From contig NZ_JARUBH010000009.1 in assembly GCF_029626105.1 (NCBI RefSeq), positions 2,232,001-2,296,000 on the forward strand: a stretch of 64,000 nt of DNA, in the 5' to 3' direction. The translations under genes and the position numbers were made by a program. Below are positions 10,382 through 21,222 of this stretch, one piece after another; positions within the stretch are counted from its first letter, which is position 1, and each line of letters starts with the position of its first letter. Source of the DNA: Solwaraspora sp. WMMD792. GTDB lineage: Bacteria > Actinomycetota > Actinomycetes > Mycobacteriales > Micromonosporaceae. The notes under the pieces were generated by a model, which was not told the origin of the DNA, made no database searches, and saw only the letters and a program-made list of their open reading frames with translations.

Positions 10382-10592
10382 AGCCGACCCCCCGCCGCCC
10401 GGTCAACGGCGACGACGGGCATCCGACGGCGGCACACACTCATCTTGCTGGTCGTCCTCCCGACAGCACGGCATGCGGTGGTGCGCCCACCACCGGCATC
10501 CACCGTACGAATATCCTCACCGGCGCAGGATCCCATGTTCGTGCCAACCTCGCCCGGCGGGGCCACGAGCCGTAGCGGGGGGAGGAGGACAA

Positions 10593-19898: not shown

Positions 19899-19926
19899 CG
19901 GGTCGATAATTTACATTATGTCAACT
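19899..19926 (+). other. dif: Candidate chromosomal dif site (XerC/XerD target)
   Basis: A 28-bp site with the 11-6-11 layout of Xer recombination sites: left arm CGGGTCGATAA, central TTTACA, right arm TTATGTCAACT. The inner palindromic ATAA...TTAT and the right arm TTATGTCAA agree closely with the actinobacterial dif consensus remembered as CGATAAT then ACATTATGTCAAGT, and with the E. coli right arm TTATGTTAAAT. It is intergenic, AT-rich in a GC-rich setting, and lies about 300 bp before a tyrosine recombinase gene. Uniqueness in the genome cannot be tested here. Confidence 0.8.
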
Positions 19927-20204
19927 AGAGGCTTGGACGAAGGCGACTGGCCGGCTCGGTTCGACCTGAAGCGACCTCGCCGGGGTCGGGTGCATTCTTC
20001 CCGTACCCCCCGTCACCGGACGTCCGTCACTCCCTGCGGGCGGCGACGCGACCGGCGCGCCGTCGGTGAACGTCCGCTTTTCAGCCTCGCGTCCGAGGTG
20101 TCATCCGACCGGTACGGGCGCTGGCGGATGCCGGAACGCCGATCCGCTCCTTTGGTCGACCTCCCCCTGCCGGCCACAGCCCTCGCTCTGGCGTCAATCC
20201 GAGA
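19927..20204. other. Non-coding spacer between dif and the recombinase start
   Basis: About 280 bp without a convincing gene. The recombinase frame is open through it, but the translation (Arg/Ser-rich, no family similarity) and lack of a ribosome-binding site argue against coding. Base composition is less GC-rich than the flanks. No further clear repeat was seen apart from the two Xer-like sites that bound it. Confidence 0.5.
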
Positions 20205-20232
20205 AACATGCATAATATCCCTTATGCACCAA
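20205..20232 (+). other. Second dif-like inverted repeat overlapping recombinase start
   Basis: Left arm AACATGCATAA, 6-bp centre TATCCC, right arm TTATGCACCAA. The inner 7 bp (TGCATAA / TTATGCA) are a perfect inverted repeat with exactly the 6-bp spacing of Xer sites. The right arm starts with the TTATG shared with dif. It contains the recombinase ATG (20224), so binding by the recombinase would occlude its own translation start and promoter. It could be a recombination site, an autoregulatory operator, or both. Confidence 0.5.
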
Positions 20233-21222
20233 TTTGTGGATCTGGTGGCGGTACGGCTCGTCGAGGATTTCCTCGCCGACCGCGCCTCCCGCAAACCCTC
20301 CCCGCACACCCTGGACGCCTACCGCCGCGATCTCGTCGCCGTCCTCCGCCTGATCGGCGACTCCACCGAACCGACTCCCCTGCCCTGGACCGACGTACCG
20401 CTGGACGCGCTCGACCAACGACGGCTCCGCGCCGCGTTCGCCCGGTTCGCGGCCCCCCGCTCCCCCGCGTCGGTGCACCGGGCCTGGTCGACGTGGAACT
20501 CGTGGTTCAACTTCCTGGTCGCCGACGGCATCGCCGCCGGAAACCCGATGCCCGCCGTGGGCCGCCCCCGGGCCCCGGTGCCACTACCGAAGCCGCTGCG
20601 CGGCGAGGAGACCCCGGAGACGTTGCTGGCTGCCGCCGCGCGGACCGACCCCCGCCAGCGCGACCCGTGGCCGGAGCGTGACCTGCTGGTGGTCGCCCTG
20701 GCGCTGTGCGCCGGTCTGCGGCTCGGCGAGCTGCTGGGGCTGCGGGTCGGCTCGGTCGCGGGACGTCCCGGTGAACGCCGGATCGAGGTGGCCGGCAAGG
20801 GCGGTCGGCTGCGGACCGTCCCGGTGGAGGCGGCCGTCGACGTCGTCGTCGACGGCTACCTGGCCAGCCGGCGGCGACGGTTCGGCCCCCGGTCGGTACG
20901 CCCCGGAGGTCCGCTGCTGGTCGACCGGCGCGGTGCCGCCCTGCGACGCGGCGGCCTGCAGTACCTGGTGCGGTCGTGTTTCCGGCGGGCCGGGATCACC
21001 GAGCGGGTGCCGCGGGGTGCGCAGCTGCACGCGCTGCGACACACGTTCGCCACCCGGTTGGCCGAGGACGGGGCGAACGCCGCCGAGATCATGCGGCTGC
21101 TGGGCCATGCGAGCCTCACGGCCAGCCAGAACTACATCGAGGTGACGGCCGACCAGCAGCGGGCGGCGGCGCGGGCCAACCGGTCGAACCGGTCGCTGCG
21201 CCAAGTCGTCGGGCCGGCCTGA
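20224..21222 (+). CDS. Tyrosine recombinase, XerC/XerD-like, next to dif
   Basis: A 332-aa site-specific recombinase, slightly longer than typical XerC/D (about 300). It has an N-terminal SAM-like core-binding domain (about 8-110: FLADRASRKPSPHTLDAYRR) and a complete C-terminal catalytic set: Arg166 (CAGLRLGEL), Lys192 (GKGGR), His269 and Arg272 (HALRH), His295 (LGHAS) and nucleophile Tyr304 (NYIEV). It should therefore be active. The ATG at 20224 is chosen because the conserved domain begins there; the frame is open further up to 19918. Chromosomal xerC/xerD usually sit elsewhere (near rpsB/dprA and scpAB), so this may be a third, dif-dedicated or mobile-element enzyme. Confidence 0.88.
   Translation: MHQFVDLVAVRLVEDFLADRASRKPSPHTLDAYRRDLVAVLRLIGDSTEPTPLPWTDVPLDALDQRRLRAAFARFAAPRSPASVHRAWSTWNSWFNFLVADGIAAGNPMPAVGRPRAPVPLPKPLRGEETPETLLAAAARTDPRQRDPWPERDLLVVALALCAGLRLGELLGLRVGSVAGRPGERRIEVAGKGGRLRTVPVEAAVDVVVDGYLASRRRRFGPRSVRPGGPLLVDRRGAALRRGGLQYLVRSCFRRAGITERVPRGAQLHALRHTFATRLAEDGANAAEIMRLLGHASLTASQNYIEVTADQQRAAARANRSNRSLRQVVGPA

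Follow-up and report, generated by a model that had tools for sequence, protein, structure and literature searches.

A palindrome beside dif as the predicted site of a third Xer-like recombinase, and a possible second resolution system at the terminus of Solwaraspora and other actinobacteria

Single-recombinase Xer modules, in the accessible text of the papers describing them, replace XerCD (PMC2731167, PMC3325230, PMC9765430, PMC5357621). As far as those accounts go, the XerS/difSL system of streptococci and the XerH/difH system of Helicobacter and Campylobacter each pair one tyrosine recombinase with a palindromic, A/T-rich site near the terminus (PMC2731167, PMC3325230). The XerL/dif system of Legionellales is likewise described as a single recombinase with a ~30-bp palindromic site near the terminus, and in one lineage a plasmid is reported to carry the gene, with plasmid and chromosome having a site each (PMC9765430). 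For actinobacteria, the available text reports one predicted dif in each of 66 genomes (PMC3025954) and, in Kutzneria, a dif opposite oriC (PMC4210621). In the open-access literature, as far as it could be consulted, no description of a further site next to dif came to light, which is not proof of absence. To our knowledge, the textbook picture is of one Xer system per terminus, formed either by XerCD and dif or by a lone enzyme that has a dif of its own. The apparent coexistence of two Xer systems a few hundred base pairs apart, presented below, departs from that picture.

The locus lies in a 64-kb stretch of DNA from Solwaraspora sp. WMMD792, referred to here in its full length as the window. 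The presumed XerCD site, dif, is on the forward strand at 19899–19926 and reads CGGGTCGATAATTTACATTATGTCAACT, which divides into CGGGTCGATAA TTTACA TTATGTCAACT. Its position rests on its likeness to known dif sites, with the sequence taken from the window itself; a stricter dif consensus had no match in the window. The motif recurs near the second site in 91 contexts, and the local GC skew flips its sign at ~20 kb. An earlier note on this DNA had described a perfect 7-bp inverted repeat with a 6-bp centre, about 300 bp from dif and holding the start codon of a tyrosine recombinase. All of these particulars hold: the core palindrome, TGCATAA-TATCCC-TTATGCA, occupies 20209–20228, the ATG (20224–20226) falls inside its right arm, and its distance from dif, centre to centre, is 306 bp. 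It is single in the window even at two mismatches (100 shuffles gave a mean of 0.00), and its exact pattern is present once in the whole assembly. There are 22 perfect palindromes of the 7-6-7 form in the 64 kb, and the dif-proximal one alone has at least five A/T in its arm.

The neighbouring gene (20224–21222, forward strand) encodes P0001, a tyrosine recombinase of 332 amino acids (PF00589, 75.7 bits) that retains R166, K192, H269, R272, H295, and Y304, the complete catalytic set attributed to it in the earlier note. It is the genome's third Xer-like recombinase, since a xerD-like gene (L001) and a xerC-like gene (L002) are both present elsewhere. The six residues (R, K, H, R, H, Y) are invariant in 24 aligned members and in all 58 members of a larger alignment. 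These 58 sequences form a clade with support of 100/99, separate from XerC, XerD, and the L004 type, in a tree of 67 rows drawn without XerS, XerH, or XerL sequences. The best NCBIfam match of P0001 is XerC, far below its cut-off: it scores 156.3 bits on the XerC equivalog model (cut-off 335.15) and 128.7 bits on the XerD model (cut-off 329.6). The XerC and XerD of the host itself fall short as well, at 282.3 and 305.4 bits, so the cut-off alone is a weak criterion; the clearer separation from both equivalog groups is that of the tree. Matches to the XerS model (62.4 of 267 bits) and the archaeal XerA model (100 of 220) likewise fall below cut-off, while XerH gives a profile match at 3e-18 with a weak fold match, and a search against sequences of solved structures returned XerD as the best match. 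A predicted structure (mean pLDDT 82.7, pTM 0.61), with TM scores of ~0.4–0.5 to XerH, XerA, XerD, Cre, and lambda integrase, adds little to the assignment.

A further tyrosine recombinase of the dif region, L004 (G000:C9:2183240-2184088), belongs to a separate clade and lies ~68 kb from P0001. It was considered as a partner and rejected, its locus having no such palindrome and its sequence grouping apart in the tree. Matches of 32–34% identity located 0.7–75 kb from the recombinase in many relatives are possibly of the L004 type.

Conservation of the palindrome follows the recombinase closely. A protein search of 61 genomes gave some match in 60, mostly to other recombinases, and close relatives of P0001 were found at 24 places (L011–L034, its own included; 43–100% identity). 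In the 16 of these with a recombinase 66–98% identical (L012–L027), both arms are unchanged at 7/7 positions in 16/16 and the centre varies. The 180 bp just upstream of the site show an ungapped identity of 0.26–0.38 in 10/10 relatives tested, and the sequence downstream shows 0.97 in the two closest. The spacer between dif and the second site (19927–20202) evolves fast by the same ungapped comparison, with identities of 0.35 and 0.32 between genomes whose recombinases are 98% identical. In more distant members both arms change together, as in TGGATAA/TTATCCA and CACATAA/TTATGTG, and these symmetric changes (TGCATAA, TGGATAA, AGCATAA-like, TAGATAA) follow the recombinase lineage.

The earlier note had put the repeat at 20 bp; that core stands, and the conserved footprint is longer. 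Of 143 loci supplied, 91 distinct contexts remained once duplicates, loci with no strict dif, and loci with no site in the stretch were dropped, and across them the footprint is symmetric to about ±16 around the centre, or ~33 bp (20203–20235). The inner bases are fixed by the search pattern and the outer ones were free to vary; among the outer symmetric partners, position +12 is A in 86/90 contexts and position −13 is T in 71/90. The outer consensus is AWWTSM-TGCATAA-N6-TTATGCA-TGAMA, and column counts over 90 contexts resolve the footprint into two ~13-bp half-sites and a 6-bp centre. For this second site the provisional name “dif2” is used.

Co-occurrence of gene and site was scored in 250 genomes of the host's family, with the gene called at E ≤ 1e-35. 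The pattern TGNATAA-N6-TTATNCA was found in 149/250, one copy each, and a reversed control pattern in none. The gene is present in 167 and absent from 83, and the two occur together in 141 genomes, the gene only in 26, the site only in 8, and neither in 75 (Fisher p 9e-32). Two copies in G384 were rejected as a true double site: they lie in identical stretches near both ends of a 52-kb contig and are probably an assembly overlap. Neither of the earlier note's refuting conditions, a repeat not conserved with the gene or one kept by relatives that lack it, is borne out: an exact site is missing from 30 of 34 gene-less, dif-bearing family genomes, and of the other four, two have a site unlinked to dif and two have a gene cut by a contig end. 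At the level of the class (296 genomes), a looser pattern, GSATAA-N6-TTATSC, occurs in 23/24 gene-bearing genomes versus 16/272 gene-less ones, its reversed control matching 10/296.

The exceptions are largely accounted for. All but one of the 26 gene-only genomes show a modified version of the site close to the gene or to dif; these 25 were sought post hoc, with looser rules and in part by visual inspection, and so count for less than the exact sites. G205 and G260 have a site with a one-base change (in G260 the gene is split over two frames), ten Actinoplanes-like genomes have TG[TCG]ATA..-like sites, thirteen of a divergent clade have [AC]GCATAA-like or CACATAA sites (that of G013 is weak), and in G244 the recombinase gene is cut. 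Of the site-only genomes, G198 and G222 have a gene truncated by a contig end next to the site, and G140 a 46-residue fragment. The sites of the other five (G068, G107, G120, G121, G145) are treated as unrelated, because neither dif nor a recombinase relative was found in the 4–5 kb around them. The Actinoplanes-like group (L048, L062, L154–L163) combines an altered second site (TG.ATA....TATGCA) with, mostly, an altered dif, suggesting a joint shift of both systems.

The second site is also tied to dif and to the terminus. Among 80 named loci, 52 have a site no more than 4 kb from the gene, and all but one of these (51) also have dif. Nineteen genomes with no exact site in the 4-kb gene flank were searched whole, giving one exact site elsewhere in 13 and none in six, of which four (L048, L062, L117, L119) show altered sites. 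Nine further loci, mainly Acidimicrobiia MAGs, had nothing in the flank except for a weak candidate in L118; the Acidimicrobiia relatives without a site within 4 kb of the gene number seven. Counting these 19, 24 genomes were searched whole; 18 have a site, which in 17 is no more than 0.7 kb from dif and in G290 is 3.3 kb from it. Over the 91 contexts the distance between the two sites is 237–1457 bp (median 417), the second site being on the XerD-arm side of dif in 42 and on the opposite side in 49. Farther sites occur in G015 (5.4 kb) and in G233 and G261 (2.7 kb). In G010 the exact site is distant from both recombinase and dif, and it is another, altered one that is found near dif, at 285 bp. 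Of 21 genomes searched, the position relative to dnaA was computed for eight with dnaA and an exact site on one contig (G000–G003, G005–G007, G009), and in 8/8 the site was 0.482–0.497 of the contig away from dnaA, that is, at the terminus.

Taken together, these observations argue, with moderate confidence, that the dif-proximal recombinase has the palindrome as its cognate site and that the pair makes up a second, single-enzyme Xer-type resolution system beside XerCD/dif. One site per chromosome, placed at the terminus, dependence of the site on the gene, linkage to dif, retained catalytic residues, and symmetric, co-varying arms all support it, and recognition of the palindrome by the recombinase is a strongly supported prediction. 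Against a second system, XerC, XerD, and dif are all present in the host, and it is not obviously needed. Moreover, the gene is patchy (83/250 family and 272/296 class genomes lack it at E ≤ 1e-35), the distance to dif and the side vary, the Actinoplanes-like group has altered forms of both sites, the seven Acidimicrobiia relatives show no site in the 4-kb flank, and Actinocrinis (L098) and Thermobifida (L105) have the gene and no site in a whole-genome search.

A rather unlikely alternative, though the one that survives best, is that the palindrome is an accessory site for XerCD/dif, at which the third protein would act as an architectural or topological helper within one composite dif. ArgR and PepA at cer are the familiar example of such helpers. 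The tight, conserved linkage to dif, on either side, would be expected of such an arrangement, as would the absence of the gene where dif is missing: the dif pattern was not matched in 49/83 gene-less family genomes versus 11/167 gene-bearing ones, and the genera g12 and g17 have no match to it at all, so that absence of the third recombinase and loss of a canonical dif seem to go together. However, a spacing that ranges from 237 bp to more than 5 kb fits poorly with a fixed architecture, and full conservation of the catalytic residues also speaks against a helper. Moreover, 34 of the gene-less genomes of the family keep dif (two of them being gene-less only through contig-cut genes), and dif can therefore do without the partner.

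Less probable still, and quite doubtful, is an autoregulatory operator only, where the recombinase would bind the palindrome over its own start and limit expression, with no recombination. In most members of the host family the core does overlap the ATG, and CATAAT within the left arm (20211–20216, forward strand) has the spacing of a −10 box for a leaderless start at that ATG, and may, judging from this spacing, be one. Yet in five genomes (L074, L076, L084, L090, L101; three Saccharopolyspora together with the relatives L090 and Actinopolyspora) the gene is on another contig, the contigs being distinguished by their differing lengths, and the site is still 332–628 bp from dif. The site is thus tied to dif and not to the gene's promoter, and a pure operator would not behave so. 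Elsewhere the gene is 1.6–8 kb off while dif stays close to the site, and all 58 of 58 sequences retain the catalytic residues. The earlier note's suggestion of a self-regulated Xer module in an actinomycete therefore survives in part. An Xer-type module it appears to be; self-regulation is no general explanation, because outside the host family the site is off the start codon and in the five genomes it is on a separate contig. Overlapping the start codon characterises the host family and not the system.

The same note had alternatively proposed the recombinase of an element that exploits dif, whose matching site was to be sought at the far end, near 27.5 kb or beyond the window. That a mobile element, integrated or domesticated, has the palindrome as its attachment site and the recombinase as its integrase is now very improbable, despite the presence of recombinase relatives on plasmids and the frequent adjacency of tyrosine recombinases to their att sites. 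Two copies flanking an insert (att/IMEX) occur neither in the window or the assembly nor in any of the 250 family genomes, each chromosome having a single site; 50,697 phage records gave no match to the recombinase, the groups of the gene tree mostly track families, and the conservation across the host family likewise speaks against an element. A multi-copy or phage origin was rejected on the same two counts, of one copy per genome and no phage match. Kribbella recombinases are nested in a Pseudonocardiaceae clade, and their sites (L071, L073, L092) also adjoin dif; gene and site therefore seem to have been transferred jointly, and then to have ended up or been kept beside dif.

The plasmid relatives merit a closer look. 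At ~34–44% identity they occur on 59 plasmid records of Mycobacterium, Mycolicibacterium, Rhodococcus, Prescottella, and Dietzia, and 13 plasmid-type loci were inspected (12 of the 59 records and one genome contig). In seven of nine mycobacterial loci a TGGATAA-type palindrome precedes the gene by 26–88 bp (perfect in four, with a single change in three), and 4/4 Rhodococcus plasmid loci (L205–L207, L210) have a symmetric TAGATAA-N6-TTATCTA 386–1011 bp upstream; L140 and L209, among the 13, have no such palindrome. Multimer resolution on large circular plasmids usually relies on a resolvase whose gene adjoins its own site, and the plasmid loci therefore suit a resolution reading. An additional TGGATAA-type site is found downstream in L205. 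In 2/13 loci (L143, position 4012; L202, position 4589) a dif-like GATAA-N6-TTATGTCAA lies ~1.1–1.8 kb from the palindrome, as if the pair of dif and second site had been copied on plasmids. The mycobacterial-type genome G507 has a single relative at E ≤ 1e-35, located on a 191-kb contig (L202), and its 4.98-Mb contig has two perfect TGGATAA-N6-TTATCCA sites, 936 bp and 7.2 kb from dif (L198, G507:C2:3800000-3815000, positions 10435 and 4189), with no recombinase relative within the 15 kb read around them. It is possible that a plasmid-borne enzyme serves a chromosomal site in this genome.

Finally, an auxiliary dif bound by XerD or XerCD and unrelated to the neighbouring recombinase is just as improbable as an attachment site, for although the half-site TTATGCA resembles the XerD arm of dif (TTATGTC), gene-less genomes have XerC/XerD-type genes and dif and yet 30/34 are without an exact site (the other four being the two sites unlinked to dif and the two contig-cut genes), and the arm changes track the lineage of the third recombinase.

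If the palindrome and its recombinase are indeed a second resolution system, one homodimer of the enzyme would bind the two near-identical half-sites, and two such sites, one per chromosome, on sister or dimerised chromosomes would form a synapse. Strands would then be exchanged over the 6-bp centre, and as this varies, recombination would be confined to identical sites. Being a few hundred base pairs from dif, the second site would be among the last DNA that FtsK brings to the septum, and involvement of FtsK is conceivable on that account. Recombination at the second site would thus serve, on this reading, to resolve or unlink chromosomes. In the host family, where the site overlaps the start of the gene, the enzyme may therefore dampen its own expression as a side effect. 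Beyond what XerCD/dif does, the system might assist XerCD, or it might provide another step of resolution or unlinking under separate control, for which long multigenomic hyphae or sporulation are a possible setting.

Judged from genome sequences, many actinobacteria appear to carry a second site and a dedicated recombinase right beside dif. Whether this two-site, three-recombinase terminus of many actinobacteria with a canonical dif amounts to an independent second resolution step, with the sites kept within ~1 kb across several families and after horizontal transfer, is a proposition to which we give even chances. Why a chromosome with XerCD/dif would retain a second system alongside is a testable question, and its answer has implications for the simultaneous separation of many chromosomes in filamentous actinobacteria. 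Moreover, a symmetric, single-enzyme site is a possible genome-engineering tool for antibiotic producers.

Cre/loxP-type plasmid resolution modules have symmetric arms, a single enzyme, and a gene near its site on circular plasmids; unlike these, most members of the dif-proximal recombinase family are chromosomal and next to dif. With XerCD/dif the present pair shares the fold, the catalytic set, and two arms around six bases. It differs in its separate clade, in a symmetric site rather than two different arms, and in scoring 156 bits on the XerC model versus 282 for the host's own XerC. As in single-recombinase modules, one recombinase with a complete catalytic set (58/58) is found with a single-copy, palindromic, A/T-rich terminus site that has a variable 6-bp centre, and it is not the only Xer system of its chromosome, given L001, L002, and dif. 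In the portions available, the accounts of XerL describe Legionellales as having no detectable XerC/XerD homologues, whereas here both coexist with a third recombinase; G507, for its part, resembles the XerL lineage with a plasmid-borne gene (PMC9765430). The low score of P0001 on the XerS model (62.4 bits vs. a cut-off of 267) points to a different sequence family. A close likeness, as far as the published descriptions available to us extend, is to XerS/difSL and XerH/difH, with their variable central hexanucleotide and a site often beside the gene (PMC2731167, PMC3325230); in those systems the single enzyme replaces XerC/XerD, whereas the host here has XerC, XerD, and dif, and its second site adjoins dif.
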